Positions 8,797 to 53,822 of a stretch of DNA of 64,000 nucleotides are shown one piece after another (the first letter of the stretch is position 1; every line of letters begins with the position of its first letter). Source of the stretch: Nymphaea colorata (lineage: Eukaryota; Streptophyta; Magnoliopsida; Nymphaeales; Nymphaeaceae); NCBI RefSeq assembly GCF_008831285.2, contig NC_045138.2:18509934-18573933 (forward strand), given 5' to 3'. Both the position numbers and the translations under genes were made by a program. Below the pieces are notes generated by a model. It was not told the origin of the DNA. It saw nothing but the letters and a program-made list of their open reading frames with translations, and searched no databases.

Positions 8797-8950
8797 CATT
8801 TTGGGAAAGGCAGGAATCGTGACCAATAATCTGGGGAGCGACGACGCGGCTGCCAACATCTTCTACAAGCTTGGCACAGATGCCAACATCTTCAACAAGC
8901 TCGGCGTGCTAGAGATTATGCATCCGTTCCCCCATTACATCTTTAAATAA
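8797..8950 (+). pseudogene. DUF247 exon-2 remnant
   Basis: The frame reads ILGKAGIVTNNLGSDDAAAN, matching the C-terminal half of the intact DUF247 genes at 18.6, 45.8 and 51.9 kb. Upstream homology stops abruptly at about 8797. A 30-base stretch is duplicated inside (the ANIF-KLG motif occurs twice). After LGVLE the frame shifts at a 40-base deletion and ends early, so the juxtamembrane and membrane segments are missing. The same deletion is present in the pseudogene ending at 30742. It is non-functional. Confidence 0.85.
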
Positions 8951-9355
8951 AGCTAAAGCCCGGTTCATTTAATCGTGTGGACGCTCCATTTTCAGTCACA
9001 ATTCATCTGAAGTTCTGTATAAGTAGTAACTTACAGAAAATAATAAAATAAATTTTCAAACAGTTCTTATGCTCCATGCCTAAATACATAAGGATTATGA
9101 ATGATTCGGACAGGTGTCAGATCCGAGCTCTGAAACAAAGGTTCCTGATATAATCAAATCTGAGCTCCAAAACAAAGCTTTTTGAATTTGATCAGGGCAC
9201 GATTCTATGTACTTAGTTCAGAATTTGATCCATTTTGCACTCCTCTTTTGCCTCCCTCTATCCATGGTGGGGCTGTTCTCATGCATTTAACGTCCTTTGT
9301 GTGGATGTCCTTGACTATTGATTTGTGCTTTAAAAAAAAAAAAAATTTTGGGACA

Positions 9356-10065
9356 ATCCAACTTTTTATTAGGACCATGATCTTTCACTGGGACCGGTTC
9401 ATGTTTGTTTTAGCTTCATGTCCAAAGGTAAAATTTACTACTCCAAAATCAATTTTTCAGACGTTCTTCAACATTTTAAACGTGCAAATGTCATTCTCAC
9501 AGTTTGAACCCGTTCTTCCTTTGCTAAAAAAAATCCTCAACCTTGACCCTCCTCCTCCTCCTCCTCAGCCCTTCATCCCCCTTCATCCTCTCCCTCAACA
9601 CTGTCACCAGCAGCCGGCTTGTTATCTTCTACGACATCTCAAACCTACAGATAGGATAAGTGTTGTGCTTTTTCAACCACTTATTATGTAGTCGTCGTGG
9701 TACTTATGCCTGCAGAGTGTCTCTCTCGCCTGCGCCAAACCCCTCCAAGCACACAACGCACCGAGCCCCCTCATCCTTCATCACCACGCTTGCCGATGGC
9801 ATACACACTCTCTATGGTGACACCAATTAAAAAATTAGACATTCTAATGTATACTTCGACTTGAGATGATCCAGTTAATAAATATCAATAAACAATTTAT
9901 CACTTATACGGATTTCATCTTCACTTGCAAAAAAGCATTTGACAGGGAATCGAATCACTAATGGTTGATGTTGACAAATCCAGATATCCTACTAAAACTG
10001 CTAAAAAGAAAAAGTGGATATGTAAAAAAAAAAATTATTTGGGCTTTAACAATGACACACATTAT
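9356..10065. other. Segment present only in copy 1 of the 8-kb duplication
   Basis: The flanks 'gggacaat' (9350) and 'atatgattatt' (10066) are adjacent in copy 2 (31141-31164), so about 700 bases were inserted here or lost there. It contains a CCT-rich run (9548-9567). I recognise no coding domain or terminal repeat. Confidence 0.5.
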
Positions 10066-10789
10066 ATATGATTATTATAGAATCCCGATACGATAAAGAA
10101 TATATCTAATCCAAATACGATGAAATCTTCGGATGACAGTAATATCGAATCAGAAAAAAAAAAAAAAAGAACACCAGTATCAAGGACTTAACTCGGAAAA
10201 AATTAAAAATACCACAGAGAAAACAAAAATCATCAACCAGGAAAAGAAAAAGGAACAGCGGACGTTCTCTCTCCTCCATTGATCGTTCCCCATCGTCTAG
10301 CTTAATTGGCTCCCTCCTGCGTTTCGAGTCGGAAACTTCATGACTTCTGCAGTCTTGAAGTTTGCAAATGAACGAACTTGTGAACAACTATAACATCATA
10401 TTGTGTGCCGTTAGTAGACTGGCGTTCGCTCGAGATGTGACATAATCAGGACTCTATGGAAAAGTTTACTAATGAGATACGGCCTAGGTTGAACGGTTCC
10501 TCATCTTCCCTCTGGCTGTTGGTAGCCGAACCCCCTTTTTTCCTGTGCTGTGAGTTACGTATGTATGTTGTATTTCAAAGTTTCAAGTATGTTCAGTTTG
10601 CCAAGGCAGTCTTTTTCTTTTCTTTAGTTGGTGAGCTGCCGTGAGTTATGCACGTACGTTGTATTTCAAAGCTTCAAGTACTTCTTTTCTTAGTGCAAAC
10701 CTCACAAGTTAAATTGCAAAAGAATGGTGCTTTTATTTTGGTCCACTTCAAGTATTTCTTTTCCTAGAATCTGTCACCTGTGTTGTCCC

Positions 10790-10985
10790 TATTATAAAAT
10801 TGATTTTAAATAATAAAATTTTAAATTTTAAAATAAAAAAATATTTTTTTAATATTGCCGGGCCCGAGTAAACCCCCGTCGGGCCGGCTCAGTGGGCCCC
10901 AACCCAGGCCGTTATGGGCCGGGGCCGGTTCATTGGGCCCGAACCTGAGCCAGTTAGGGGCCGGGTCTAGCCCATTTGTCTTGAA
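10790..10985. mobile_element. GC-rich MITE-like block, copy 1
   Basis: An AT-rich core joins a strongly GC-rich tail full of GGGCC/GGCCC words (10857-10976), the mixed composition of a GGGCC-type MITE family also seen at 17481-17783. The copy at 31860-32060 is the same insertion carried by the 8-kb duplication. The ends are not defined. Confidence 0.4.
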
Positions 10986-11409
10986 AGAAACTCGAACTCG
11001 GCTTGAGTTAGCTGAGATTTTATTAAAAAAAAAGTTATTTTTGAATGGAAGAGGCAAATATAAGCAACCTTATTTTATTAAAAAAATTCTTCTTTTTTTT
11101 AATGTAACCTCTCTCTCTCCCTCTATCTAAATAATTTTTAAGCCGATTAGTTTTTATTCGGGATACCAAGTTTTTTTTAAGAGTTGTAGTGGAAGGAAGA
11201 AACCTATGTCACCTGGGTGCGGGTGTCGAAATGGTACATCTCAAAAAATTTAGGTGCGACGTTGTGACAAAGGTATTTTATTATTATTATTATTATATAT
11301 AACAGAATAAACATGTATATATTATTATTATTATAGTTTAGTTATTAATGTATATAACATACTTGAATAATTGCATTGCATAAGAAAATATCAGAACAAC
11401 AAGATATAT

Positions 11410-12560
11410 TGTTCCATTAGTTCAAGTCATTTTTGTAAAAAAAAAAAGCCTTTCTACTATGAAAATTTTGATACAATAAATGCAATTTAATTTTTATTAT
11501 TAAAAAATATTTTTAAAATTAAAAAACAACTAACTTAAGATTTGTTTCTCACCAAACCACTCTTGAAATATCTATAAGGTTAGATTGTAAAAAATAACAA
11601 TTAATTTTAGTGAATGTGGTTTTTGTTTGACATTTTTACCAAATTTCGTGACACGTTATGAAGTGACAACTTTTACACCACAGGGACAACTAACCCAAAA
11701 ATAATCTAAATCAAAATTTCTCAAAAAAATTGGTTAAAACTCAATGCTGAAAAATGCAAGAGAAGGTAACCTTTCCTTTTCCGCCCTTATACTGGTGGCC
11801 AGTTTCTTTTGCTATTTATTTAGCCATTTGCAATTAGGTGATCATCACGCTCGTCTGGCCATTTTCTGGCCAGCTATCAGCTAACAAATGGCCGGAAAAT
11901 TTTTATAAAGCTTTCATTCTAATTTTGCCAATGTCTCCGCCATAACTGGCCGAAAAATTGAAAAATCAACGTCGCATGACGTAGGGAAGCTCGGGGACTG
12001 CACTTTGTTTTTAATCAGCGGCAAATAAGTGGCAGGAACATAGTTGTTACATAAAGTATCATCATGCTGCTATTATCATAGGAAGCTCTATAGATTAAAA
12101 AAAAAAAGGAGAAATTACCATAAGAAGAAGGTCTAATTGCTTAAAAACATGAAAGATATGGCATCGTGGTTCACAAAAAATAAAGTGGCTTCACAATGAA
12201 TGATAGACTACTATATTTCCTAGGACTACTAATGCAAGACGGATTGAGATCAACGACTCCTAATCCATCCACACCCACGACTAAGCTAAATCGACGCCTA
12301 AAACTAACTAAAACCCAAGCAAATGACTAAACAAGACAAGAAGAACAGAGGCAAACTAACAAACGAATTACCTAGATCCAGTTATGCAGCCTACCCGGGG
12401 GTGGAGAAGAGTCGTCTTCAAGGAATTAAAAATCTTTTAATCTGTCAAAACGAGTCTTCATCCTAGAAGGTTTGGATCTGTTCAAGAAAAGAGTTCACAA
12501 CGCTGCCGCTACTTATGATAGGGTGGCGGACTGCCCACCATCTCCCTGCCACAAATAGAG
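11410..12560 (+). repeat. Repeat R0, copy 1 (5' truncated)
   Basis: This matches 6500-7760 and 33135-34270. It lacks the first ~500 bases present in both other copies, so copy 1 suffered a deletion at about 11410. No gene is seen. Confidence 0.7.
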
Positions 12561-13060
12561 ACCTTCAGAAACTCAGGTTACTGGGTAATTTCTTCGTAAG
12601 TGATAGGGTGGCGGACTGCCCACCATCTCCTGGCCATTTTCAGGTTATTGTTGGATTTGGATCACCAAGAAGGGATTGAGACCAACATTTGGGTTGCGTC
12701 ATGTACCCAATGCAGATGCATCTTTAATTTCTAGATACATGTTTTAGTTCGGTCACCATTTATCGTTCTTTTATATCTCGCATATATGTTCTGAATCAAG
12801 ATCCCAGGAGGGATTGGATAGTTTCGTGATCCTGGTTTAGATTTTCATCTAATAGTGCCATGATTTTCTATATAAATTTTTTTAAAAATAATATTTTAAA
12901 CCTAGTCAAAATTTAAAAACTTTTATTTGGCCCACCTCACGAAAATTTTTTGGCTCCGCCCCTCCACATTATGGAACCGAATCGTGGATATGAATGCTTT
13001 GGCTTACATAACTTTCCACTTATAAGATGAAAAGAGATACGCTGCCACTGCAAAGGCAAA
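12561..13060. other. Spacer with half of a hAT-like MITE
   Basis: The string 'gatagggtggcggactgccc' occurs twice (12518 and 12602). 12870-12967 is the right part of the element found complete at 34706-34876 and ends in 'ggctccgcccctc'. The left part and preceding sequence were deleted in this copy. No gene is seen. Confidence 0.5.
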
Positions 13061-13600
13061 ACTAATCCTGCTATATGAATACAAATAGTTGAGGCAGCCA
13101 CACTTGAATGGGAGAGAGTAAAACCAGATTATGATAAGGAAGCCATGTTTTGCACATTAAGCCTCGTTTTCCCCTTGATTGGATGCCAAGATATGGTTTT
13201 GCAATAAATAAAAATAGGATTTAATAAGAAATAGCAACTACGTACAGTGCACTTATAATTGGCTGGAAAATGGTTGACCTCTCAAACTGCTATTCAATTT
13301 TCAGCCAATTACGACTGAAAGTTTTGAATAAATGAAAAAAAAATGCATACTGTATTCTAATTTGAATTCCAAATTCATAATTTGAATCTGACCTGAATCA
13401 GATTTTCAGATTAACATCTGAATATGAAACCATATTACAATGAGTATAAGATGCATTTTTTCATAACTACATCTGATCCAAATCTCAATTGACTCCAATC
13501 AATATTTACTTAAAACTGAATCTGATTCTTATCAATATTTATGTAAATCTGAATACGATTGGATGTCATTTTTTATATCTAAATTTGATCTGAGTTCTTA
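13060..13600 (+). repeat. Dispersed repeat R2, copy 1
   Basis: Blocks such as 'ttggatgccaagatatgg', 'cacttataattggctggaaa' and a run of 'aatctgaatctgat' words recur at 24330-24830, 35030-35590 and 50200-50690. Each copy precedes or follows a DUF247 or copia-derived segment. It is non-coding. Confidence 0.65.
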
Positions 13601-13639
13601 GTCGGATGTCGAAATTCTCTCCATATACTATTTTTTTTT

Positions 13640-14990
13640 AATGTGGTTCGGTCAGATATCGAATCTACTCTACAGGTTTCTCAGATTGAATTTCATGACA
13701 TGTCAGATCCTTTGCCACCAGTAGTTGAAGAAAATGATGAAGCAAGGCCTACCATTTTGCGACAGTCCATTATCGGTTCGCCTCAACCTGTAACTCCATT
13801 ACAGCACACTATCATTACTCGCAGCATGACTGAGATATTAAAACCTAATCCAAAATATGATAATCTTCATGATGTTGCAACATATGCTTCTACACCTAAG
13901 GAGCCGCACAACACTAAGGAGGCGTTGAACCACTGAGGTTGGAGGCTGCTATGCAGGAAGAAATATCCACCTTATATGAAAAGAACACTTGGGATCTAGT
14001 ATCACATCAACCACAAATGAATGTGGTTGGATCAAGATGGGTATACAAGGCAAAACTGCAAATTGATGGAACTCTTGAGCGATTGAAAGCTCGCTTTGTT
14101 GCATGTGGATTCTCTTAACTTGAGGGAGTTGATTTTGTCGCTCCTGTTGAACAAATTACACTATTTTTTAGGCATTGAAGTTCATCCTACCGATGAAGGA
14201 CTTTTTCTTCGCAAACAAACTATGCCAAGGATTTGCTAGACCGAGCAAATATGTTTAATTGCAAGTCTGTCGTTACACCCATGGTGGAAAAAATCCAAGA
14301 AGCTTCTTATGAATCTTATTTCATAGAGGTTTGGTTTGTGTCTTACAATATTTGACCATAACAAGGCCCGAACTGTCCTTTAGTGTCAACTATGTGAGCC
14401 AACATATGCATAGTCTTGTGTTACAACGTTATGAAATGGTGAAGCATATCCTTCGATATATAAAAGTTACTCTTGATGTAAGTATGAGAATCATGACTCA
14501 AAGTTCTATAGATGTATATGCTTTTTGCCACGCTGATGGGCTGGTTGCCATGAGACAAGAAGGTCTACTACAAGCTTTTGTACATTTCTTGAAAATAATT
14601 GTATTACTTGAGTACCAAGAAACAAAGTATAGTCTTTAGATCAAGTACGGAGGTTCAAGTACGGAGGTGGAGTACAGAGTCATGGCATCCACTGCCATAG
14701 AGTTAACTTGGATCTCTTTTGCCCTTAGAGAAAAAGCAGCAGAAGGATCTTTGATCACAAAATTTGTTCCCTCAAAACATCAACTTGCAGACATTTTTAC
14801 AAAACCTTTAACAATGATTTAATTTCACGCCTTAAGGAGCAAACTAGGCCTCCTCAATCGACACAATTTGATGGGGAGTAAAAACAAAGCTAGTGAAGAT
14901 TGTGATAAGATGAAGAAAGCAAACCTTCATCTTGAGTTCTGCAAATTTGGGAAGAAGACAATAAGGATAGAAATTGAAGGTTACAATGAC
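13640..14990 (+). pseudogene. Ty1/copia pol fragment, copy 1 (wrecked)
   Basis: Translated pieces match copia pol in order: a linker before RT, RT start (SRWVYKAKLQIDGTLERLKA), then directly the late RT and RNase H region (YLTITRPELSFSVNYVSQHM) and the C-terminal ADIFTKPL. A frameshift near 13935, a TAA in place of a Gln codon at 14117, and loss of the RT palm with its YVDD site show that it is dead. A further one-base deletion at the RNase H 'HADW' motif is private to this copy. The tail to about 14990 may include LTR remains. Confidence 0.85.
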
Positions 14991-15221
14991 ATAAAGAAGG
15001 AAGACGTTATAAAAACCAACAAAAATTAGAATGAATACATGTGATCAGAAAGCTACTATAAATCCTTATGTTATGAAAGGAAAGTTTAGATCGTGTACTC
15101 TGTGTTGTGGCTGAATAAAAATATTCTTTCCTTTTTCGTGGACATAGATTCACTTTGAACCAGACCACATTATTTCTGGTGCCTCTTCTTTCCTTTTACT
15201 TTCCGTTTACATCCTACTGTG

Positions 15222-15345
15222 TGTCAAAGCAGGATGTCCACTTATAAGCCATGGGACGGAGACAAAGACCAAGCGAAGATTTTTTTGGCTGAGGAGCTCC
15301 TTGAGGAGAGCAAGTTGCGTGCACTGCTGGGTGCACACAACTTAT
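15222..15345 (+). other. Possible small exon or gene fragment, copy 1
   Basis: After a pyrimidine-rich stretch ending in 'aaagcag', a short frame opens at ATG 15232 and codes for about 37 residues (MSTYKPWDGDKD ... LRALLGAHN). Copy 2 at 37143-37261 keeps the frame despite a net 3-base difference. I do not recognise the protein. Confidence 0.3.
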
Positions 15346-15579
15346 ATACAACAAAAGAAAAAATTGGATATTTTGGTAATTATTGAAAAAGCATATTTTT
15401 AAATTTTTAATTTTTTCGGTTTCCCTTTTTATCCTACAAAAAGTTTTCATTTTATATTAAGCAGGAGTATTGTTATCATTAACCATAATCTGTGCACTAA
15501 AATTTCATACACTAGTATGGCATATTTTTTTAAGACTTAGCTCACACCAGCCACACTGTAGATGAAATAAATTAAGCCG

Positions 15580-15685
15580 TGGAATTCAGGATTCCCATCG
15601 CACATAGTTTTCTGGAAAATGTGACACTTGATTAAATTTAAACCACTAGCCAACCTTTTCTGTTCTAAGCCTCAAAAGATCGAGT

Positions 15686-15717
<32 letters not shown>

Positions 15718-16290
15718 TATATTGTGATTTGCTTCGGATGGGGTTCAGTGAATTGCAATTGATAAGGAAAGTGACTGTCCTAGTCTCTGGGTTTTGGTAT
15801 CATTTGCTCAAAGTCTTCTTTGATTTGAACCTTGTTGCCTGTTTGGCAAGGTAGGGCATGATTTCCTCTTCTTAGGAAAGGGACACAATCTCTACACACA
15901 AAGCCTTGATTTCTTGGGACTTGGATAACATTTGCTGTTTATATTTGAGTTATATACAGGTAAAAATTTCCTTCAAAAGATATCGTTAGAAATATAAATA
16001 TTGTTAGATTGGAGGTAATAAATAGACTTGGAGTAGAGGACAAAAGGAGGGAAATCTCAAATTGATATCCAACCCTTAAGTATAGCCGAAATGCAGAACG
16101 TAGTGGAATTCAAGATTCCCATTACACATTGTTTTCTGGAAAATGTGACATTTGACTGAATTTAAACCATTAGCTACTTTTCTTTTCTAATTTAAGCCCA
16201 AAAAGATGGAGCTATTGACAAGGACAGTGCATGAGTGTCCTGGTCTCTGGCTTTTGGCGTCATTTGCTCCAAATCTTGTTTGATTTGAAC
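15580..16290 (+). repeat. Dispersed repeat D, copies 2 and 3
   Basis: Two D units lie in tandem. Each has 'ggaattca(g/a)gattcccat', 'ttttctggaaaatgtgaca', 'cactagc' or 'cattagc', then 'gtcctggtctctgg' and 'catttgctc'. The unit junction near 15900-16080 holds the 'ggacttggataacatttgctgtttatattt' block. It is non-coding. Confidence 0.65.
15686..15722. repeat. (AT)n microsatellite
   Basis: This is about 37 bases of AT/GT alternation. The corresponding site in the second copy of the duplication (37604-37620) is much shorter, so the tract is length-variable. Confidence 0.9.
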
Positions 16291-16310
16291 CCAGCATTCA
16301 CTTTCAGCTA

Positions 16311-16800
16311 TGGATGCTTCAGTGGTTGATGCGGGTTCCTCCTTCGATCAAAACTCACCATCTCCTGTTATTAAAAGACAGAGGTTCCCAAAGAAAGCCT
16401 TCAAAGGCGGTGGAACCCCTCAGAACAGAAAATGACTACCCATCACACCAACTCTTAAACGAGTTCGATGGTAAACGAAGAAAAGAACAATCAATAGTTC
16501 TCTCTCAATGGGACTACAATCCCTACAAATGAGCACCTGTCCTTGACCACAACCAGAGAGAGCTCCTCAGCCTTTCACTTTTCTGGCTCTTATGAGGATT
16601 TGTCCCTCTCACAAAGGCGAAAAACAATTACGTATTACATATGCAGCGGCATTGGAAGAACCACTAACAAGTGAAGGAAAAATAAAAGCGGTTGAATGTG
16701 GGCCAGATGTAGGTAAGTGGAGAGCACAGATCCAGATGGGACTAAGGTGGGTCCAGGTTGATCGAGATCCAAACATCGCATTGTCATGTTGGATCTGAGT
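16311..16800 (+). pseudogene. Unidentified gene fragment, copy 1 (degraded)
   Basis: This begins with an ATG coding for MDASVVDAGSSFDQN and, after a frame change, continues as PSHQLLNEFDGKRRKEQS and later YAAALEEPLTSEGKIKAVEC. Compared with copy 2 (38183-38674) it has lost about 28 and 40 bases and gained about 20. The composition is protein-like and unlike the surrounding AT-rich repeats. I do not recognise the family. A third, 5'-only copy lies at 43579-43645. Confidence 0.4.
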
Positions 16801-16833
16801 TGGTGGTGAGATGAGAAGCGTTGAGAGGTTCAT

Positions 16834-17480
16834 GTGTGTTTGTGGGTTATAAAATCTACCAATATTTCAGAAAATAAGAAGCTCAAGATATATTGAAGCA
16901 ACTGTTCTGCTGCCAATTGAAACACAACATTTTTTTTTGGGGGTCCTTTTGGCTTTCTTATATATATAATATTACATTAAGTTAGGTTGAAAACGATGGC
17001 AGGAAAATCCTTGGTAAAATTTTTAACGAGAACTTATGAGGCGTATGATATTTTTCATGGATTTTAGATCTCATGGCCTGAATTGATGTGGCACTCACTT
17101 CGGTTTTATGGTTCCAGCCGATTGCATATTTGACAACCATAAATTTCTGATCATTAATCTCTCGCAAATTCATGAAAAGAAAAAGTGAAGGTGAGAAGAG
17201 TGTGACTTGAGATTGGCGGATTTTAAGACGCCCAAATTCATATGACGCGCACCTTCTCAAAATTGATTTCGAGCTCCGGTTCCTTATATAAATCTTAAGA
17301 ATCTAAAATCTTCAAACCTAAGATCTCTAGAACTTACGTCGCCTCAAATCTTAGGTCCAATTGGATCCAAATCTAGAGAGAGAGAGTAAATGTGAAAGAA
17401 GAAGACTTGGGGAAGCGTTCAAAGCCGGTGTAGGTGTATGCTGTGGGGCGGCAATGAAAAAAATTGCCAAGTTTTTTCTT
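16834..17480. other. Intergenic, no gene recognised
   Basis: Only short open frames are present (for example 16982-17260 on the minus strand), with no domain I recognise. The segment ends at the left border of a MITE. Confidence 0.4.
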
Positions 17481-18611: not shown

Positions 18612-21600
18612 ATGGCGGACGAGATTACAACAATCGTTATGGATAATGCTGCAGGTACCAGCCATGGTGGCAGTGGCGACGGTGGTGGTTCACGAAAGTG
18701 TATCTTCAAATGGCCTCAGGATCTTGTAAGTCGTCTAGGGGAGGACATCCCCCGTGAACCTCAGGTGGTAGCCATTGGGCCTTACCACCATCGCCAAGAA
18801 AACCTAATGAACAAGGAGTATTATAAGAGGAAAGCACTCTCCAGGGTGCTCCGCTTGTCTGGCGGACTTGGAGAATCCAAGTTTGTGGTGGCCCTGAAAG
18901 AAGTGGAGCAGGAGCTCCGCGATCACTACGACGAGCTGGATGCTAAAATCTGGCCATCCGACTCTTTTGTTGTGATGATGCTTCTGGATGGCTGCTTTTT
19001 GCTCGACTTTCTTTTTAAATTGGACAAACTGGTGGACAAGCCCTTGACCGAGTCCCTACGCACGCAGCTGCTTTACACCCCTGCCTACGCCTTGCTTATT
19101 CGGGACATACACTTGCTAGAAAATCAAATTCCTGGACTCGTGTTGGAGGTGTTGATGAAGGTTGCAGGAGGCTCCCAAAATCCGTTAAGTGGTGGGAAAC
19201 TGTCCTCTCAAGCCTTGCATTTGTTAAACTTGCAAAGGATGAGCCTCCTGGGTGAGAACCTCTTTCCCCGTCCTCCACGCTCCATTTCAGGTAATTAAAT
19301 GCCTCCATATACTTCTTTTTATAGCTATTCAATGTTTTCCGGTCATCGGGCGCTCCACTCTTCCGGGTAGTTCCATGCCTCCATGCACGCTTCTGTAGCT
19401 ATTCAATTCTGACCCTTAAAACTCTAGCAGCATAGCGGCGAAACTGGTTTTGGAGGCATTCCTATGTAAAACGAAATAGTTTTTATAAGGACAAAAAATA
19501 TTATGAAAAGATTAAAAATTGAAAATATATATTTCTTTATAAAATTTGGAGAATATCTCAACCCCCATTATTTAAAAAAAAAAGGAGAAAAAATAACAAA
19601 AGCCCATCAAGAATCGCATTTGAGACTGTGTACACTCCTGCATTTAGGCCTCATCAACAACCCTTTCAAGAAGAAAGAAAACCTCGAAACGGAGCATTAA
19701 GCGAAGGAGGTTTATGTGGTTGTGCATATTATCAAATTAATATGAGCTTTTCAATATTCCAACAATAACATGATGTGGTTCGACCACTAATAAGGAAATT
19801 TATAGCGGCACAGCATAACCAAGTCTTTGTTTCTTAAATAAAATTGCAAACTTTCTTTCTTAAATGTCTCTTAGATAAGATTTATTGGTGTTAAGACTAA
19901 CGGGCGACTTAAATGAAAAAGAAATTTTAATTTAAGGCTCTCTGCCAAGCCTTAAATGTTGATTTTTCTTTGCTTTTGTTGCTGTTGCTTTATTATATGC
20001 TTGTTGATTGAGATGATGGTTGCACAAGCTTGGTTTTTTATTATTACATATCAAGTGTTTGTTCAAATTTTGTTTGACATTTACATGGAGGGAAAGTTTT
20101 CTGCACCTTTGAGTTGGCCTCTAACAATTTAAGGGCGTGTTTTGATATACCGTTTCAAAAAAGGTGTTTTTGTCAAATCCTAGTTTTGTAAAACCATTTT
20201 TTTAAAAGAGTTTTGAAAACCTGGTTTTAATATTTGGGTAGCATAACAAAAACCAGGTTTTTTCTAAAGTGAAAACCTGATTTTTGTTTGGATGACCAAA
20301 ATTTGGTTTTTGGAGGTACCTTTGATAAAAAGACTTCCGCTGAATGGTAGCTACGAAAATGAGTACAGGCAATAAGGTTTAAGTTAATGAGTGGAAGTGA
20401 ACTCAAAGAGGAATTTGCCAGGTTAGATTGACGATAGTAAACTTGACAAAGTTTTATGAGTCAAGTGTCTCCTGGCTTGAAATGCTTCAGTTAGTACTGC
20501 ACTAATCTGAAAACAAATTACTGAGCTAATGTGAGCCAACTTGTTTAAACTGATAAACGAGCATAAACTGGTAGTGTTTGTTCAAACATAGCTTGATTAG
20601 GATCATTAGACGAATGAGATATGTCAGTTCATGGGCAAAAAATCATACCCAAATTTCAAGATTCTTTTGTACTTTTCCAATCTCATTATCATTGAATGGC
20701 ATACAACCACAAGCTCCAGCATTCAAGCTTGGCTTGTTGAACAGTTCATGAAACAAGCTATGTTCATTATCAAATGAATTGGATTAATCTCATGATGAAT
20801 GCGAGCTGAGTTGGAAAACTAATGAAATGAGCATGTCCTAACAATGTCCAGATTACCAAGTCACAGCACTAATTGATGTAATGTACACTTCCTAAAAATG
20901 TGCCTGTCAATCACTTTAGCTTCAAAGAGGGCCTACGAAGTGAAGGTGGTATGATTCCACTGAAGTTGTAATCTGCCAGGTTCCTGCAACAAACACAACA
21001 TATCCTTAAGAAGAACCAGGAGTCAGTAAGTTGAAGACTGCATCCTGAACCTCTGAATTCCCAGTCACTTGCCGCCCCCCCTCCCCACACACACACTCCT
21101 ACTCAGAGATAAAGAGAGAGAGACGATAAAATGAGAATTTATACCAAAATTTAAAAGCAAAAAGTCCCTAATTACAATAATGAGAGACAGTCATGTCACA
21201 CTCTATCTACCTAGGAAAATTTAGTTCCAATAAATATGACTGCGTGGTGGAATTTAATTAATTCCCACATTGTGGATCCTACTCACCTTGCCTACCAGGA
21301 AATGCTATGGAAAAACTTAGGGTGAAAATCTTTTATGTCCTTAAATCGGAAATCTCTTAGATAAAAAGTGATTTGTTTCTTACTAAATAACTTTTTATTT
21401 GCAGCCCGTGCTCGACGGGCAGTTGAGCATTTTTTCTGTCGTGCACCTGTATCTCTACACATTTTGCGTTCGTGGGGTTGTGACGTGACCAATGGGTGTT
21501 CTGCGCCACACCCCGGAGATGATAACGAGGGCGTCCAGCAAACAAACGTTCTCGAAGTTATAGCGCTTGAAGAGAACCTGCAGGGCGTCGCACTTGAGAC

Positions 21601-22177
21601 GCTCTGGACTATCACTCGAAGCTACAAGCATCTGCGTTCTGCCAAGACGCTTCGCACATCCGGAGTGACCTTTAAGAAGAGCAAACCCGAGACCGGCGTG
21701 TCGGGCGTGAGGTTTGATAAAGGAGTTCTCTACCTCCCTGAGCTCGTACTGAACCAAGCATCACAGGGAGTGTTCATGAACATGGTGGCCTTCGAGCGAA
21801 TGCAACCACAGAACAGAGGCATCACCTCCTTCATGTCATTCATGGATTCTCTGATAGACACTGCCGAAGACGTACGCATTTTGGGAAAGGCAGGAATCGT
21901 GACCAATAAACTGGGCAGCGACGAGGAGGCTGCCAACATCTTCAACAAGCTCGGCGTCCTTCAGATGTGTAGTCCCTTTGATAAGGTCCTGGAGGAGGTG
22001 CAGAATTATGCATCCTTACCTCACCATGGGTGGTGGGGGCACTTCAAGGATACCTACTTAGCTAACCCGTGGACCATTCTCTCACTCACTGGCGCCCTCT
22101 ACCTCTTATTGCTAGCCACCGTCCAAACAACATACACTGTCTTGTCCTATTACCACACTAATCGCTCAGGCAAGTAG
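18612..22177 (+). CDS. DUF247 (UPF0481) membrane protein, gene A
   Basis: Two exons, 18612-19290 and 21405-22177, joined by a GT-AG intron of 2114 bases. The first exon leaves one base of a codon and the second supplies two, so the frame is kept (phase 1); the product is 483 residues, normal for the family. Seen in the N-terminal half: VAIGPYHH at 53-60, LLDGCFLLDF at 124-133 and DIHLLENQIP at 165-174, the DUF247 hallmarks. In the C-terminal half: GVRFDKGVLYLPEL, then one hydrophobic segment at about 449-472 (ILSLTGALYLLLLATV) with a short tail, as in other DUF247 proteins. The ATG context (acgATGG) is good and is shared with gene C. The biochemical role of DUF247 is unknown in general; in grasses members determine self-incompatibility. 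It is the leftmost intact member of the array. The residues after the intron form a longer linker than in B and C. Confidence 0.92.
19373..20939. other. Intron segment absent from gene C
   Basis: The intron of gene A matches that of gene C on both sides ('ttccgggtagtt' at 19362-19373 and 'gtgaaggtggtatgat' from 20940), but these ends are joined in C (52683-52716). The extra ~1.57 kb has no recognised coding region. Because an LRR-type exon crosses the right border here and is cut in C, deletion in C is more likely than insertion in A. Confidence 0.6.
20915..20983 (-). pseudogene. LRR receptor exon fragment in the intron of gene A
   Basis: On the minus strand, after a splice-acceptor-like 'gttgcag', a 69-base frame reads NLADYNFSGIIPPSL and ends at a GTGA donor-like site. 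The pattern N-L-x-x-N-FSG-IP is that of plant LRR receptor kinases, whose LRRs are often coded by ~72-base exons. No kinase or neighbouring LRR exon is visible, so it is a stray exon. Confidence 0.5.
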
Positions 22178-23760
22178 AGAAAGGTTTGTTTGGCTATGTG
22201 CAACAGTCTCCAGTGTACAATCTCGCCAAGTAAGTTTGTTTGTTTAGCCCACATATGAAACAACTAAATAATCAAGATTAAAAAAAACAAAAAAGAAGCC
22301 GTGGGTTGTAAGAGCTGGGCAATTTAGGCCAGACTGAGCGGGCCCGTAAAGGCCTGTGCTAGCCCTACTTGCCAGCTTCGTATATCTCTTAATTTTGTTT
22401 AGCCGTTTTATTTTGCAGTTATAATTTTATATCCATAACGTTATAAATTGTGTACTGCTAGTTCTTGTGTATGGTGTTTGCTTATGTTTTGATTTGGTGC
22501 AGCAATTCGAAGAACAAATTGGTTATAGACCTGCCCGCCTTCACTTTCGTCCACTCGTCTCTCTTTTCTTATTTTTTTTTATTTTTTTTTTTGCACGTGA
22601 TAAAAGACTACCTCAAGTGAAATTCCTCTATAGCACCCATTAAATCACCTAGGAGAAAAAAACAATTAAAATTCTCAATCACCTATCAAAGAAAGAGATT
22701 TAAATTGGTTTCCACACAAACCGTTGAGTCATGAATGAACTTCGGAAGTAGAACGGACACTGGCCTTCACAATTTTATCACTTCCCAGTTAATAATAATG
22801 ACAATGATAAAGCCAAAATTGACGATCAAAATTTATTCAAAATGAAATATAATAATACCTCCAAGAAACCGTGTACATGAAGACATGGACTGAAGAAAAA
22901 ACAAATCAATTAATGAAATACTCAAGAAAAAATGTGCACTATGTTTTAAAAAAAATATACTTCAATCGAAGAACAAAAGATAACCTACAAAGACTCCTGA
23001 AGTATGGTGACGAATGTCAGATGGTTAGAAAAGGGAAAGGAGTGACTCCTTATGTAAGGAGATGAAGAAGTCAACGAGACCATTTCCATTTGAAACCTGA
23101 TTTCTCTTGTGGGTGACATGCATGCAGCTTCCAAAATGAAGCCGTCGATTCATCGTGCATGAACAAAGGGATTTCCTCATAGCTGAACAAGGCAACAAAA
23201 AACGAGCAGGCATTGGCATGAAATAATCGGTAACAGGGAAGAAAAAGAGAACTTCATGAAAAGCATTAGCGCAGACCTAGCATCCTTACCCTCTTCATTA
23301 GCTCCAGGAGCTCCACAGCCCATGCACACTGCCTCAGCCTCTATCATCATATTCAATATAGACTTATTGGAAGGTTGAAGACGAAACAAAGTTTGTCATG
23401 TTGGAGGACGAACAGCACATAGCAGTGGAGGAGAAGTCGGAAAAAAATGTGAAGAGAACACCGTCGGAGAAGACGAAACTCCCGTAACTCTTGAAGAAGA
23501 GGAGATCATGAATGCCACCAGCGAACGTGAAACACCGAGCGGTTACGGCGGAATTTTTTTGTAGAGAGGATGAAAGGCCGCAATATTTTACCATAAAAAA
23601 TTTCATCCTTCGTCCATAAAATTTAAAACAAAATATTCGAAGCCCTCTTTCGCGCACATTTGAAGTTGCCGTGGCCGTCTCCCCTTCTTCCTGTACTCAG
23701 CTAACTAATTTTCCATTTTTCTGAAAAACACATCTGCAGCAAATACCCTCTATCCCTTTT
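22178..23760 (+). repeat. 3' flank module, behind gene A
   Basis: This module follows each intact DUF247 gene: 'gggcattaggccaga', 'taaattgtgtactgctagttcttg', 'cacttgtgggtg', 'gcatgcatgcagcttccaaaat' and 'gaagacgaaac'. It matches 47954-49400 behind B and 53823-54480, 56013-56389 and 62052-62450 behind C. On the minus strand a frame containing MMIEAEAVCMGCGAPG (within 23177-23389) stays open in the copies, but its function is unknown. Confidence 0.65.
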
Positions 23761-38170: not shown

Positions 38171-38182
38171 CACTTTCAGCTA

Positions 38183-45771: not shown

Positions 45772-46693
45772 ATGATGGAGCTGCAGGAGGAGAACACAAC
45801 AATCCAAATACAAGAAGATGCCGCACCCATCAGCGACTGGGTAGCAGACATCACGAATGATTACGACGACTACGTTTCTTTAGGAACTAGAGGTGGTGGG
45901 CAGTCGGTCAAGTGCATTTTCAAATGGCCGCATGATCTTGTGCAACTTCTGGGGAAAGGCATCGATCATGAACCTAAGCTGGTAGCCATTGGGCCTTACC
46001 ACCACGGCCGAAGGGACCTGCAGCCTATGGAGGATCACAAGAAGAAAGCGCTTTTTAGAGTGCTCAGCTTGAGCCCCGGAGTTAAAGTATCTAGCTTCGT
46101 GGAAGCCCTCAAACAACGGGAGCAGGAGCTCCGCGATCAGTATGACGAGTTGGACACAAGAAACTGGCCATCGGATTCTTTCATAAAGATGATGCTTCTC
46201 GATGGCTGCTTCCTGCTTGACATGCTTTTTCCATTGGACGCATTTGTGGAACCGCCCTTGGACCAGTCCATCAACAATCAGCTGTTTGACACCTATCGCG
46301 AGAATGTGCTCGTTCGGGATGTATTTTACTTGCTGGAGAATCAAATTCCCGGCCTCGTCTTGGATGTGTTGGTTAAGGTAGGAAACTGCAAATATTTCCC
46401 AGACCCATCCAAGGGGCCGCTGCTTCATGAGGCTTTACACCTTCTAGACTATGTGAGGAGGAGGTTTATGTTGGATCCTAAGGCATTTATTGACGGCGAG
46501 TCATGTGACAGCCCCTCAAATGTTCCAGGTAATTAAATCTTGATCTACACTTCACCAGCCCTTATTAAATCATGTGTGACACTCTCGAGCATAAATCTCT
46601 GTCGCAAGTTGTTCTTGTTTTAGTCAGTGGCGCAGCTAGAAAAATTAGCTGGAGTGGTACCTATTTAGAAACATAAACATTTGTATCTGAAGG

Positions 46694-46737
<44 letters not shown>

Positions 46738-47953
46738 GACTATGATAAACTCTTATCATGAGATTGACTTTTCAGGTCTCATTCCAATCATGGACACCCC
46801 TTGTATATACACTCCGGGTGGATAGCAAAAGAGCAGTTCGTCATCCATGAACCTGAGTTTCTTATACTTAGGAAAATTATACATGCAGATGAGAGCAAAT
46901 CGTTAAAAGAAACTCAAGTTATGTTGCCTGTTGACAGTAAGTTTATACGAGAAAACGTATAGGTTGGAACATAAATTACCTATGTCTTCAAAATAAGGCA
47001 CAGCAGTAAAGGAACATCAATTGTTTCAAGGGTTTTCCAAGATTATGGAGATTTTTTCTTCTTTTCTTTTGATCTTTTGCTTTTCAAAATCACTTTTTGA
47101 ATCCTCAATTTAAATCACCTTTTCCAATGGTCACCGTCTTTCTTTTGCGTTTTTCTCTCCTATGTTCATCTTTCAGCGCTTTATTTCTCTCTCTTAAGGT
47201 GCACATACTATCTAAATTCGCCTCTCAAAGCCTTTCTCTTTTTTTTTTCGTTAAAAGATCGATCTTCCCATAAAGGTCCATACTTTAGTGACAATTATGC
47301 CTTTTAGATTGATTTTAGTATTTGCACCTTGGCCAGAGAGGCAGGCGTCAGTCTCCGGCCAACCGGTTGATCGTCCGAGCACTGGTATCATTGCAATCCT
47401 CCCCAAGAAAAAAAAGTTTGTGCGGTCTGCGAGGAAGCTTGAGGCCGCGGGAGTCATCTTCAAGAAGTTAAAGGATAGCAATAACGTGTTCCACCTGAGC
47501 TTCAGTGGGGGAGTTCTCTCCCTCCCTGAGTTCGAGCTGAACGAGACATCAGAGGGACTATTGATGAACATGGTGGCCTTCGAGCGAATGCACCCAGAGT
47601 CTGACGGAGGCGTCACGTCCTTCATGTCCTTCATGGATGCTATCATAGACACTGCCGAAGACGTGAGCATTTTGGGAAAGGCAGGAATCGTGACCAATAA
47701 TCTGGGGAGCGATGAGGCGGCTGCCAAAATCTTCAACAAGCTCGGCGTGGTTGAGATGTTTAGTCCCTTTGATAAGGTCCTGGAGGAGGTGGTGACTTAT
47801 GCATCCGCTCCTCACCATGGGTGGCGGGCGCACTTCGAGGATAAATACTTAGCTAACCCGTGGACCATTCTCTCACTCACTGGCGCCCTTTGCCTCTTAT
47901 TTCTAACCGCCCTCCAAACAGTATACACTGTCTTCTCCTATTACCCACACTAA
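45772..47953 (+). CDS. DUF247 (UPF0481) membrane protein, gene B
   Basis: Exon 1 is 45772-46528 (donor ccag|gtaatt) and exon 2 most likely 47319-47953. Exon 1 leaves one base of a codon and both plausible acceptors (before 47319 or before 47337) restore the frame, giving about 463 residues. Motifs: VAIGPYHH at 71-78, LLDGCFLLD at 142-150 and LLENQIP at 187-193, then GGVLSLPEFELNE and a C-terminal membrane segment (ILSLTGALCLLFLTAL). The frame is open from 45604, but a TATA box at 45637 favours the Met at 45772. The acceptor used by A and C (tttgcag) has become 'tttgcac' here, so the exon-2 start is uncertain. The residues after the intron differ completely from A and C. It is most similar in exon 1 to the pseudogene at 27.6 kb. 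Confidence 0.88.
46697..46735. repeat. (AT)n microsatellite in the intron of gene B
   Basis: About 39 bases of AT repeat follow 'ggggc'. It is preceded by 'cagtggcgcagctagaa' (46624), which resembles the tip of a hAT-like MITE. Confidence 0.9.
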
Positions 47954-50060
47954 TAGCTCAGGCAAGTAGAGAAAGGTCTGTTTGCCTATGTGCTACAGTC
48001 GCCAGTGCACAATCTCGCCAAGTAAGAGTTTGTTCTCGCCAAGTAAGAAGCCGTGGGTTGTAAGAGCTCCGCATTAGGCCAGACTGAAAAGGCCTGTCGG
48101 TTGCCAGCTTGGTATTTCTCTTAATTTTGCTTAGCCATTTTATTTTTCAGCTATAATTTTATTTCCATAACATTATAAATTGTGTACCGCTAGTTCTTGT
48201 ATGGTGGTGTTTGCTTATGTTTTGATTTGGTGCACCAATTTGAAGAACAAATTGGATATAGGGCTGCCCGCCTTCACTTTCGTCCACTCGTCTCTCTCTT
48301 TTATTTTTATTTTTATTTATTTTTTTTGCACATGATAAAAGCCTACGTCAAGTCAAATTCCTCTATGGCACCCATTAAATCACCTAGGGGAAAAAAAAAA
48401 AGAAAATTCTCAATCACCTATCAAAGAAAGAGCCACGATTCGGGAAAATAATAACCTAGCTGAATGAAGAAACATGCTTGAAAACTAAGATATATCATAT
48501 CACCCAATGAATTTGGAGCTATTATGAAGAGCACACTTAACTTGCACTATTTTTAGAAATCTGCTCAATTTTGCCAAAATTTACAATAAATATGTCACAT
48601 TCATATAATTTTGTAAATTATCAGAAGAACAAAAATAAAAGAAACAAATTGAGTTCATGGATCAGGTTTGAGGAAATCCATTACGGTAAGGAATTAGAAC
48701 TCGTAACCCTTCCTGCACTTGTGGGTGGCATGCATGCAGCTTCCAAAATCAAGCCGTCGATTCATCGTGCATGAACAAAGGGATTTCCTCATAGCTGAAA
48801 AAGGCAACAAAAAAAGAGCAGGCATTGGCATGAACTAATCGGTAAAAGGGAAGAAAAAGGGAACTGCATGAAAAGCATTAGCACAGACCTAGCATCCTTA
48901 CCCTCTTGATTAGTTCCAGGAGCTCCATAGCCCATGCACACTGCCTCAGCCTCTATCATCATATACAATATAGATTTATTGGAAGGTTGAAGACGAAACG
49001 AAGTTTGTCATGTTGGAGGACGAACAGCAGGTAGCAGTCGAGGAGAAGTCGGAAAAAGTGGGAAGAGAACACTGTCGGAGAAGACGAAACTCCCGTAACT
49101 CTTCAAGAGGAGGAGATTATGAATGCCACCGGCGAACGTGAAACACCGCAGCTGTTACGGCGGAATTTTTTTGCAGAGAGGATGAAAGGCCGCAATATTT
49201 TACCATAAAAAATTCCATCCTTCGTCCATAAAATTTAAAACAAAAAATTCGATGCCCTCTTTCTTTCACGCAATTTTTTCCATGACTACAGGTTTTGTCC
49301 TGGGACGGGGAGGCCCATGCGACTGCTGAAATTGCCGTCGCCGTCTCCCCTTCTTCCTGTACTCAGCTAACTAATTTTCCATTTTTCCGGAAAGCACCTG
49401 CTGCAAGTACGCCGCCATCTGTACAAAAAACCACTTTACAAAGAATAAAATGACAAAAGAAAGATGCTCATTAGGCTCTGAACTAAATCTATACTGAAAC
49501 AATAAAAGCGTGAGGCTCGATCGCCTCTACATAAAAGATTTGAATCCCTGGAAATTTCACACCTAAGATCTCGATCTCCTCTACATAAAAGATTTAAATC
49601 CCTGGAAATTTCACACCTAAGATCTTTATTTTATTTCTGTGCATTGAGAAAAATCAGATTTAAGATCGGAGGGGGAGGGTTTGATCTTGAATCCACTGTT
49701 CTCAAATCGTCGCGATCTCAAATCCAAGGCTGTCAAACATATCCTAAGGGATTGAGACCGACATTTGAGTTGTATCATGAACACAATACAGATGCATCTT
49801 TAATTTTTAGATACATGGTTTTGGTCGCCGTTTATCGTTCTATTTACAACTCATAGATATGTTCTGAACCAAGATATGACAATCGATTGGATAATCTCTT
49901 GATCCAGGTTTAGAATTGCAGCTGCTGGTAAAACTACTTCAAGTTCAGCTTTTGGAGCAAAGAGAGACCAGCTTGTATTGCGATCTGTTTGCAACACTGT
50001 AGTACTGTAAGAAAGTCATAAACCATCTATCGTGAAACATAAATAATTGGATGCACACAC
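47954..50060 (+). repeat. 3' flank module, behind gene B
   Basis: It follows gene B and matches 22178-23760 behind A and, with very high identity from 48640 on, 56013-56389 plus 62052-63090 behind C. At about 48995 it contains the intact site 'gaaggttgaagacgaaac' into which the copia element inserted in the C copy. No gene is recognised on the + strand. Confidence 0.75.
49516..49623 (+). repeat. 54-bp tandem duplication in the 3' flank module
   Basis: Two copies of a 54-base unit starting 'ctcgatcgcctctacataaa' (49516 and 49570). The same doubling is at 62578-62685; the A flank has one copy (23889-23942). Confidence 0.9.
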
Positions 50061-50199: not shown

Positions 50200-50690
50200 A
50201 GGCCAATGCTGATATATGGATGCAAATATTTGAGTTAGCCTCGTTTGAATGGGAGAGAGCAAAAACCTGATTATGATAAGAAAACCATGTTTTGCACATC
50301 ATGCCTCGTTTTTTCCTTGATTGGATGCCAAGATATAGTTTTCGACAAAAATAAATAAATAAATAAGAGTTAATAGAAAATTACATGTAACAACTATGCA
50401 CAGGCCACTTATAATTGGATGGAAAATGGTTGACCTCTCAAACTGCTATTCAATTGCCAGCCAACTACGACTGAAAGTTTTGATTAAATTAAGAAAAAAC
50501 ATACATACTATATTCTAATTTGAATTCCAAATTCGAAATTTTAATCTGATCTGAATCTGGTGAAACGATATTACAGTGAGTGCAAGAAGCACTTTTTTCA
50601 TAGCTACATCTGATCCAAATCTGAATCTGAATCCGATCAATGTTTACTTAAAACTGAATCCAATTCTGATCAATTTTTAAATCCAAATAG
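50200..50690 (+). repeat. Dispersed repeat R2, copy 4
   Basis: This matches 24330-24830 and 13060-13600 ('aaaggccaatgctgatatatgg', 'gattggatgccaagatat', 'ggccacttataattgg'). It is non-coding. Confidence 0.6.
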
Positions 50691-51912
50691 GTAACTTGTT
50701 TCCCATCTTTGTTTCTATTTCATTCTATATCTCTAGTATGACATTCTGTTCTGCGATATTTGAGAAGCACCGTCAATAGCTCAGTGTAGATCCGGAATAA
50801 TCCTTAGCTTCCTCTAAGCATGTATATGAAAAACAAAGATCAGAACGTAGTAGAATTCAAGATTCCCATCGCACATGGTTACGTAGAATTCAAGATTCCC
50901 ATCGCACATGGTTTTCAGGAAAATGTGACACTTGACCAATGGAAGGCCACGGACGTGTAGAGAAAACCCGTCTCTTCTTTTTCGTGCAAGAGTATGATCG
51001 TCACGAAGAACTCTATACACCCTCTTCCCCATTTTATTTGTTTATTGGAGAAAGGAGATGACGGAACCAGTGAAAGGCCACGGACGTGTGGAGGACACGG
51101 GGTCAGGAGAGCCTTTCCTGCTTTTGTTTGTTTAATAAGTGAGATCAAGGCGAGCGACTCTCCCACCTCTTACTCTAAGCCCTCCCCGTATGGCCTGGAT
51201 CTCAAAACACAGCCGGTCCCGACTCTCTCCCTCCTTTTATTATTCAGCCTACATAATTTTATCTTTTAAAAATGGGTCAGTCGTATAAAATTGTAACAAG
51301 ATTCGTCCTTTTCAAAAAAAGACGACAAAAGCGAAAAAGTAAAAAGCCGCATAAGAAGCGCGTACAAAAATGTGGTTTTTAGTGTTTTTTTTCACATTTT
51401 CTAACGCTGCATTTCTATTAACATATTTTTTACATTTTATAGTTGGGATTATTCTTTTGAACTTTTTAAAATTTGTCCACATCTTTCTAAAGTTTTTTCA
51501 CAAAAACACTTTTACTGCATTATGCCCGAAAAAACGTTTTTTGCTTTGGTTTGTGGATAGGTTACATGCATATCGCTAGCAACAAACAGTACATGAGTGT
51601 CCCGGTCTCCGGCTTTTGGCATCATTTGCTCCAAATCTTCTTTGAATTGAACCTTGCGGGCACGGTAGGTTCATAAGAAAGGAACACAAGTTCAGGGCCT
51701 TTTTTTTCACATGGAATGGCCATCTTCATCGGTGACCACATTTTTATTGGAACGAAAGTTTTTTCTACAGCGGTCTTTTTCACATTTTCCTTTTTAAGAT
51801 CGAGAAAAGCCACAGCAATGAGAATGAGAGAAGAGAGAGAAAAGCCATAGAAACTCCTGCAATCCTTCACTCCCCATTCCGTCCCTCCTTCCTTCCCTTC
51901 GTATACAGGACG
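50691..51912. other. Spacer upstream of gene C
   Basis: It contains a 39-base tandem duplication around 'acgtagaattcaagattccca' (50841-50925), a second direct repeat 'ggccacggacgtgt' (50945 and 51078), part of D (51590-51700) and the leader shared with gene A ('ggtgaccacatttttatt', 51732). The last ~200 bases are probably promoter and 5' UTR of gene C. I see no clear TATA box. Confidence 0.4.
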
Positions 51913-53822
51913 ATGGCGGACGAGATTACAACAATCGATATGGATAATGGGGTAGCTACCAGCCATGGTGGCAGTGGCGACCGTGGTGGTTCACGAAAGT
52001 GCATCTTCAAATGGCCTCAGAATCTTGTAAAACGTCTAGGAGAGGACATCCCCCGTGTACCTCAGATGGTAGCGATTGGGCCTTACCACCATTACCAATT
52101 GAACCTACTGCCCATGGAGGCTTATAAAAGGAAAGCGCTCTCCAGAGTGCTCTACTTGTCTGGCGGACTTGAAAATTCCAATTTTGTCGAGGCCCTGAAA
52201 CAAGTGGAGGAGGAGCTCCGCGATCACTACGACGGGCTGGATGCTCGAAGCTGGTCATCCGAATCTTTCATAGAGATGATGCTTCTTGATGGCTGCTTTT
52301 TACTCGACTTTCTTTTCAAACTAGACGAAAAAGTGAAAGGGCGCTTAGACGAGTCCAAACGCAGGGAGCTGCTTTACACCCCTGGCTACGCCGTGCTCAT
52401 CCGGGACATACACTTGCTAGAAAATCAAATTCCTCTTCTCGTGTTGGAGGTGTTGATGAATGTTGCAGGAAAAGAAAATTTACGAATGCCATGGAGAAGA
52501 GGGAAACTGTCCTCTCAAGCCTTGCATTTGTTAAACTTGCAAAGAATGAGCCTCCTGGGTGAGAACCGCTTTCCCAGTCCTCCGCGGTCCACTCTTTTTT
52601 CAGGTAATTAAATGCCTCCATATACATTTTTCTTATATAGCTATTCAATGTTTTCCGGTCATCGTCATCGGGCGCTCCACTCTTCCGGGTAGTTACATGG
52701 CAGGTAGTGAAGGTGGTATGATCCCACTGAAGTTGTAATCTGCCAGGTTCCTGCAACAAACAAAACTTATCCTTAAAAAAGAAACAGGAGTCGTAAGTTG
52801 AAGACTGCATCATGAATCTCTATTCAGTTGTATTTTCCAGCAAATATTGATATTTCCAGTCACTTGTGCAACACACACACACACACCTGCGCAGTGAGAG
52901 AGAGAGTCATGTCACACTTTATCGACGTACGAAAATTTAGTTCCAATAAATATGGTGGATCCTACTCATCATGCTTACGATAAATGCTATGGAAAAACGT
53001 AGGGTGAAAAAACATTAAGGCTGGATTCAAGCCTACCATTAACAGACTCAAAAATCTATTATGTCCTTAAATCAAAAATCTCTTAGATAAAAAGTGATAT
53101 GTTTCTTACCGAATAACTTTTTATTTGCAGCCAGCGCTCGACAGGCAGTTACGCGTATTGTCCGCCGTGTATCTGGGGCGGAGTCAGGGGCAGGTGCTAT
53201 AACGCGTGAAGAGAACCTGCAGGGCGTTGCACTTGATACGCTTTGGACCATCCGTCGAAGGGACAGGTATCTGCGGTCTGCCAAGACGCTTCGCGCATCC
53301 GGAGTGACCTTCAAGAAGAGCAAACCCGAGACCGGCCTGTCGGGCGTGAGGTTTGATAAAGGAGTTCTCTACCTCCCTGAGCTCGTACTGAACGAGGCAT
53401 CAGAGGGAGTGTTGATGAACATGGTGGCCTTCGAGCAAATGCACCCACAGTCTAACAGAGGCATCACGTCCTTCATGTCCTTCATGGTTGCTCTGATAGA
53501 CACTGCCGAAGACGTGAGCATCTTGGGAAATGCAGGAATCGTGACCAATAATCTGGGGAGCGACGAGGCGGCTGCTAAAATCTTCAACAAGCTCGGCGTG
53601 CTTGAGATGTGTAGTCCCTTTTTTGAGGTCATGGAGGAGGTGGTGACTTATGCATCCGTTCCTCACCATGGGTGGTGGGTGCACTTAAAGGATACCTACT
53701 TAGCTAACCCGTGGACCATGCTCTCACTTACTGCCGCTCTGTACCTCTTATTGCTAGCTTCCGTCGAAACGGTATACACTGTCTTGTCCTATTACCACAC
53801 CAATAATGGCTCAGGCAAGTAG
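51913..53822 (+). CDS. DUF247 (UPF0481) membrane protein, gene C
   Basis: Exons 51913-52603 and 53131-53822 with a 527-base GT-AG intron, phase 1 as in gene A; product 460 residues. Same motif order: VAIGPYHH at 53-60, LLDGCFLLDF from 124, LLENQIP, then GVRFDKGVLYLPELVLNE, MNMVAFEQMHP and a C-terminal membrane helix (MLSLTAALYLLLLASV). Start and leader (caggacgATGGCGG) match gene A, the closest paralogue; by eye the two proteins differ at roughly a fifth to a quarter of positions. The linker after the intron is shorter than in A. The intron lacks ~1.57 kb present in A. The copia element lies 2.6 kb downstream and does not disturb the gene. Confidence 0.93.
52707..52750 (-). pseudogene. Truncated LRR receptor exon in the intron of gene C
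   Basis: Same acceptor (gttgcag) and start NLADYNFSGIIPPSL as at 20915-20983, but homology ends after about 44 bases at the junction where 1.57 kb is missing. The two copies show the fragment was in the intron before A and C separated. Confidence 0.5.

Follow-up and report, generated by a model that had tools for sequence, protein, structure and literature searches.

Introduction

Large plant-specific tandem blocks of DUF247 genes occur in some trees. Among the members of the family are the male determinants of self-incompatibility (SI) in grasses and a sex gene of asparagus. In rice, one intron is reported in 36 of 69 DUF247 genes and none in 18 (PMC11184719). Grass SI DUF247 genes are described as intronless, with products of 508–559 aa; the linked ligand gene of the S and Z loci (sS, sZ) is given one intron and a product of 82–122 aa (PMC9825253). 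The Arabidopsis protein SR3G is reported to depend on its C-terminal segment for its place at the plasma membrane and, when cut free of it, to occur in nucleus and cytosol (PMC11952752). Positive selection is reported at some SR3G sites (PMC11952752, PMC10221614). The subject here is a tandem DUF247 array of Nymphaea colorata, in a stretch of 64,000 nucleotides (the window; contig NC_045138.2, positions 18,509,934 to 18,573,933, forward strand). It carries three intact genes (A, B and C), two dead exon-bearing copies (W0 and W1) and two promoter remnants (P0 and P2). All coordinates are positions in the window (Table 1).

Mosaic structure of gene B

Third codon positions have their best change point at residue 311 of B (position 47,510, inside exon 2), both against A and against C. 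The third-position difference from A/C is 47–48% to the left of this point and 12–13% to the right. The gain is reached in 0 of 1,000 shuffles for B–A and B–C alike. No such change point is found between A and C at third positions (the gain is matched in 350 of 1,000 shuffles). Synonymous divergence (dS, NG86) of B to A/C is 0.96–0.97 in exon 1 and 0.20–0.24 in the exon-2 core. In 120-base windows, B is 67–78% identical to A/C in the exon-1 body (lower at the exon ends) and unalignable in the intron (38–52%). At the start of exon 2 the identity climbs from 41% to 69%; it is 82–94% between about 47,510 and the stop codon, and 81–97% in the 3' flank. The non-coding 3' flank is 88.4% identical to that of A and 80.5% to that of C. 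Silent sites and non-coding flank are both alike, which argues for exchange between copies; constraint on the protein was therefore rejected as an explanation for the similar C-terminal core. The intron as the boundary of two histories was rejected for B, the change point lying within exon 2. Judged from its sequence, B is a mosaic of an N-terminal part of its own and a C-terminal core and 3' flank of the A/C kind.

The exon-1 tree places A with C and B with the wreck W1 (1,000 of 1,000 four-point bootstraps, 441 columns; 100 by maximum likelihood, ML). The internal branch of the quartet is 0.20 in exon 1 and 0.013 in the core. The original prediction took A, B and C to be sisters; in exon 1 this holds for A and C, and B is sister to W1. 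The 5' part of exon 2 of W1 is 78.2% identical to C (119 sites), 72.9% to A and 55.2% to B (87 sites). W1 looks mixed too. If its exon 2 is of the A/C kind throughout, its breakpoint differs from that of B and at least two events would be needed.

Assembly is a very improbable source of the mosaic. Repeats of 98–99% identity are of a type that assemblers confuse, and two different copies could be joined by mistake. The junction in B, however, is in frame inside a complete domain, in a region where B has just 83–94% identity to A or C, and W1 likewise has a mixed appearance.

Proposed history of the array

The explanation preferred, and thought likely, is a tandem DUF247 array that grows by unequal exchange, loses copies by decay and contains the mosaic gene B. 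Two interleaved sublineages would be present. X comprises A, C and the two remnants, the latter assigned by their promoters; Y comprises B, W1 and W0, the last assigned by a lesion shared with W1. Exchange between X and Y would have left B with its own N-terminal part and X-like sequence from inside exon 2 onward. The products would be plasma-membrane signalling proteins with a diversifying variable middle region.

From W0 to C the sublineages alternate as Y X Y X Y X, where the labels of W0 and P2 are indirect and P0 is omitted as ambiguous. The intervals from A to W1 and from C to the window edge are partly collinear. A repeating unit of one X-type and one Y-type gene, duplicated together, with the X membrane half moved onto Y N-terminal halves, is improbable. 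If true, the unit would make this an array of paired receptors beyond the S/Z loci of grasses, its variable heads kept apart and its anchor halves alike by exchange. Such a unit would also place a B-like gene or wreck some 1–2.5 kb past the right end of the window.

Several observations weigh against the preferred history of exchange between maintained copies. Differences between A and C in exon 1 number 30, 32 and 36 by codon position (p 0.75), as expected of weak protein constraint. Gaps in multiples of three also occur in non-coding sequence (intron 7 of 9, leader 2 of 2, 3' flank 2 of 8). The strongest hydrophobic window of gene A is internal (residue 119, 1.97), above its C-terminal one (1.67). 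Few units underlie the X/Y order, and W0 and the remnants are placed indirectly. The quartet for the 5' part of W1 exon 2 is split (A and C against B and W1, 535 of 1,000; A and W1 against B and C, 361; A and B against C and W1, 104; ML joins W1 and B at 60), and the core quartet is not clearly resolved (747, 251 and 2 of 1,000; ML 73). Because these quartets are poorly resolved, neither donor, direction nor number of exchange events is claimed.

Gene models and predicted products

Each of the genes A, B and C is modelled as a DUF247 gene of two exons on the + strand, with intact frames in 3/3. The joined exons match Pfam profile PF03140 over positions 1–401 of 401 in all three, with scores of 277.1, 279.4 and 288.4 bits for A, B and C (curated cut-off 24.8) and E-values of 4.1e-82, 8.1e-83 and 1.5e-85, respectively. 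Three intact two-exon genes in one orientation had been predicted, and they stand as models. The products are of 483 aa (A), 457 aa (B; 463 aa if exon 2 starts at 47319) and 460 aa (C). When the exons were scanned apart, for gene A alone, they matched complementary parts of the profile (Table 1), so that the halves belong to one domain; two separate genes in place of two exons are therefore unsupported.

The donor is identical in A, B and C (G/GTAATTAAA, phase 1, 3/3; the slash marks the exon boundary). The acceptor TTTATTTGCAG/CC is common to A and C. B is without it and has two phase-1 acceptors close by (exon 2 from 47319 or 47337), the choice being ambiguous. Of the common phase-1 intron of the original prediction, the donor stands for all three genes and the acceptor for A and C; in B the acceptor is shifted. 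Conservation of the protein is lowest where the intron falls (A residues 205–300, with 6 of 96 columns identical in A, B and C and 47 gapped). In the exon-1 body, by comparison, all three agree in 87 of 161 columns, and in the core in 100 of 160. Each intact gene is predicted to make one spliced mRNA, its exons joined in phase 1 within the middle portion of the domain, where length varies. The intron of A carries about 1.56 kb (19378–20938) not present in C.

All three proteins end in a C-terminal hydrophobic segment, with 19-residue Kyte-Doolittle means of 1.67 (A), 1.97 (B) and 1.82 (C) and tails of 9–17 residues. No N-terminal hydrophobic or signal segment is found in A, B or C by hydropathy. 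The proteins would have a tail-anchored layout and a location at the membrane, by hydropathy. Mean predicted local distance difference test (pLDDT) values are 38.6 for exon 2 products and 40.7 for exon 1 products (3 sequences each). The protein of C, the only one queried, has no relative in viral contigs and no sequence match in PDB up to E = 1.

Table 1. Coordinates of genes, wrecks, remnants, flanks and insertions of the DUF247 array
Feature	Position	Strand	Description
P0	5817–5931	+	A/C-type promoter/5' leader remnant, no exon 1 behind; 81% to 51670–51786 over 117 bp
W0	8795–8930 (end approximate)	+	piece of exon 2 from a dead DUF247 gene; tblastn 8795–8929
W0 3' flank block	8881–16912	+	duplicated at 30673–38825, unshared stretches between
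Gene A exon 1	18612–19290	+	PF03140 positions 1–174
Gene A intron	19291–21404	+	phase 1, GT..AG, predicted
Gene A exon 2	21405–22177	+	PF03140 positions 226–401, C-terminal hydrophobic segment
A 3' flank	23106–24004	+	common to B (48718–49685) and C (56114–56389 and 62052–62747)
W1 exon 1	27648–28212	+	B-like, broken
W1 exon 2	29137–30742	+	interrupted, 3'-truncated; 5' part nearer C than B
Insertion in W1 exon 2	29243–30426		1,184 bp, 20-bp perfect terminal inverted repeats
W1 3' flank block	30673–38825	+	copy of 8881–16912
P2	39722–40120	+	A/C-type promoter remnant, no exons
Gene B exon 1	45772–46528	+	B/W1 lineage
Gene B intron	46529–47336	+	phase 1, predicted; alternative end 47318
Gene B exon 2	47337–47953	+	change point 47510, A/C-like to its right
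Gene C exon 1	51913–52603	+
Gene C intron	52604–53130	+	phase 1, 527 bp, predicted
Gene C exon 2	53131–53822	+
Copia LTR retrotransposon in C 3' flank	56390–62051	+	329-bp long terminal repeats (LTRs), 4 differences; 5-bp target duplication AAGAC
Right-edge copy	63711–64000	+	matches sequence 442–694 bp upstream of the ATG of A; relatives upstream of B and W1

Selection and maintenance of open frames

Ka/Ks (omega) was estimated for each half of the protein, a check proposed in the original prediction. Between A and C it is 0.73 (0.44–1.22) in exon 1, 0.66 (0.45–1.04) in exon 2 and 0.55 (0.31–1.07) in the core, all intervals including 1. Between B and A/C it is 0.42 in exon 1 and 0.81–0.85 in the core. 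Across the three pairs, the values for exon 1, exon 2 and the core lie between 0.42 and 0.92. In the 5' part of exon 2 (38–47 codons, wide intervals) omega is highest for A–B, at 1.34 (0.82–2.94; 38 codons), followed by A–C, at 0.93 (0.47–1.65), and B–C, at 0.66 (dS saturated). No omega is significantly above 1 in any region or pair of A, B and C.

Core differences between A and C number 16, 10 and 25 by codon position (p 0.035). Under simulated neutral drift at 0.1 substitutions/site, the frame of A stays stop-free in 0.86% of 5,000 runs and that of C in 0.94% (substitutions only). Gap lengths between A and C in exon 1 are 6 and 6. Their use as proof of kept frames was dropped, since gaps in intron and leader are mostly multiples of three too.

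The whole array could be decaying, with A, B and C as young non-functional copies still open by chance. This is doubtful. The nearly equal exon-1 codon-position differences and the A–C omega intervals that include 1 are consistent with it, as are the end of B, which is shorter, has a 1-bp gap and is no longer in register with A/C, and the wrecks and transposable element insertions on all sides. The rarity of stop-free runs in the simulation (about 0.9% per lineage), the uneven core codon positions, the exon-1 omega of 0.42 between B and A/C and the identical donors argue against it. A, B and C are read instead, from their substitutions, as fast-evolving yet maintained genes.

Extent, wrecks and duplicated flanks

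Same-strand repeats span the window from about 5.0 kb to its right edge in self-comparison (303 alignment rows, every pair counted from both sides; 11 inverted). The array is thus wider than the 45 kb first claimed. The copy at the right edge is 84.6% identical to the sequence upstream of A over 246 sites, and the array probably continues past the window.

W1 is one gene (27648–30742) split by the 1,184-bp insertion, which is probably a DNA transposon. Exon 1 of W1 has an in-frame TGA at 27832, frame-changing gaps and a lost donor GT near 28505. With B as the query, the tblastn match of W0 extends to 9007 at 45%. Of the "at least three wrecks" of the original prediction, two bear exons (W0 and W1) and two remnants are promoter-only; the figure stands if the remnants or the pieces of W1 are counted. 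The same 3' truncation junction is present in W0 (8917) and W1 (30709), so that a dead gene was itself duplicated. The simplest reading of the shared junction is that the gene died first and was duplicated afterwards. Most of 8 kb of the W0 and W1 3' flanks is shared, at 93–98% identity in five pieces (gaps ignored). Inside these blocks, otherwise at 93–97.5%, a 1.4-kb tract (11415–12857 against 33130–34577) is 98% identical (gaps ignored); it is perhaps a separate conversion tract.

Duplication of the flanks with the genes, also predicted, was confirmed by the self-comparison. The 3' flanks of B and C are 98.5, 99.7 and 97.7% identical in three pieces and 80.5% in the piece adjoining the stop. 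The flank piece 23106–23651 and its copies are 94–98.5% identical among A, B and C, above the flank beside the stop (80–88%); no conserved coding frame was seen in the piece or its copies. The Copia element in the flank of C (56390–62051) is young and largely open. Its exact empty site is present in the flank of B. From the few LTR differences in C and the empty site in B, sharing of the B and C flanks probably preceded the insertion and is about the same age.

A birth-and-death tandem family consists of local duplicates with their flanks and of pseudogenes, and its members evolve independently, without homogenisation. The first feature is present here, and the birth-and-death character claimed for the locus is seen in the duplicated flanks, the duplicated dead gene W0/W1, the remnants and the young LTR element beside C. 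Independent evolution is not seen. The core and 3' flank of B are like those of A/C, the B–C flank is 97.7–99.7% identical in three pieces, and the copies exchange sequence.

Putative role

The most likely role, by analogy with studied members of the family, would be that of a membrane-attached signalling protein of a developmental or stress kind. An ordinary developmental or stress-response cluster like At3g50120–At3g50200 of Arabidopsis is given an even chance. That cluster is a tandem with nine paralogs, and SR3G is reported to act in root and salt response (PMC11952752); DUF247-1 is reported to affect cell wall and growth (PMC10221614). The same domain and C-terminal anchor are present in the Nymphaea array. 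A housekeeping role would not usually go with such weak constraint on the protein, however, and insertion lines of the neighbours of SR3G are reported without a consistent root phenotype in Arabidopsis (PMC11952752).

A recognition locus, for self-incompatibility or non-self recognition as in the grass S/Z loci or the oak proposal, with X and Y as paired receptors for a secreted ligand, is unlikely. Two diverged DUF247 genes with hypervariable segments are described at each of the grass S and Z loci (PMC9825253, PMC9623065), and the authors of the oak study propose non-self recognition for a large tandem block (PMC9018854). Here, too, two diverged types are adjacent, the middle is variable and omega is high, with the 5' part of exon 2 reaching a point estimate of 1.34. 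None of the omega values, however, exceeds 1 significantly. An intron and products of 457–483 aa are found here, against the intronless genes and 508–559 aa described for grass SI (PMC9825253); the failing feature lowers the case that these genes are SI-DUF247 genes, not that they work like them. One intron is common in the family and the grass SI genes are intronless, so the intron is no argument for a recognition role, nor do tandem arrangement and an intron by themselves amount to evidence for one. A ligand gene in the duplicated flanks was considered and nothing was found: ligand-like single-exon open reading frames (ORFs) number 0, in a weak scan blind to two-exon genes and with a null mean of just 1.0 (20 Markov shuffles). 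The sole ORF of at least 35 aa in all three 3' flanks differs mainly at codon positions 1 and 2 (6, 3, 1; A–B), with 9 of 57 residues changed (A–B). The tandem Arabidopsis DUF247 genes that have been studied act in other processes. The original description as a recognition locus rather than a housekeeping family was not demonstrated, since no omega value exceeds 1 significantly and the weak scan turned up no linked ligand gene.

Neighbouring features

An open intronless CC-NBS-LRR (coiled-coil, nucleotide-binding site, leucine-rich repeat) gene adjoins the array on its left (511–4257; 1,248-aa frame with Rx_N, NB-ARC, winged helix and LRRs). The Pfam matches of the window, to CC-NBS-LRR, DUF247 and Copia, mark it as plant DNA. 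In the W1 flank block, an open frame at 36167–36802 resembles, by eye, a Copia RNase H remnant; it has no Pfam match at 0.001.

Comparison with described DUF247 systems

Tandem DUF247 arrays are already published, and this array is another of them. With the plant-specific family PF03140 it shares the full-length match, the C-terminal anchor and the one intron, and nothing sets it apart as a family; the difference is that B is here, on the comparisons above, a mosaic of two sublineages. The mosaic is the new point. No report of mosaic DUF247 genes was found in the open-licence literature searched. With a DUF247 gene that is mosaic at base level, a single tree of the whole protein may mislead, since head and anchor halves can differ in history.

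The Arabidopsis chromosome 3 cluster (At3g50120–At3g50200, with SR3G and DUF247-1) is, as described, likewise a tandem array of the same family; wrecks and transposable element insertions in the array distinguish the Nymphaea locus. The block reported in oak (Quercus lobata) is alike in its tandem complete and partial copies (34 complete, 22 partial) but far larger, and non-self recognition is a proposal there (PMC9018854). The asparagus gene SOFF is reported as a DUF247 gene with at least one intron, as here, but it is a Y-linked female suppressor (PMC5665984). The grass S/Z loci, as described, are alike in two diverged DUF247 types side by side, the C-terminal anchor and the variable segments. 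They differ in intronless genes with products of 508–559 aa and a linked sS/sZ, whereas the Nymphaea array has an intron, products of 457–483 aa and no ligand gene found in the weak single-exon scan.

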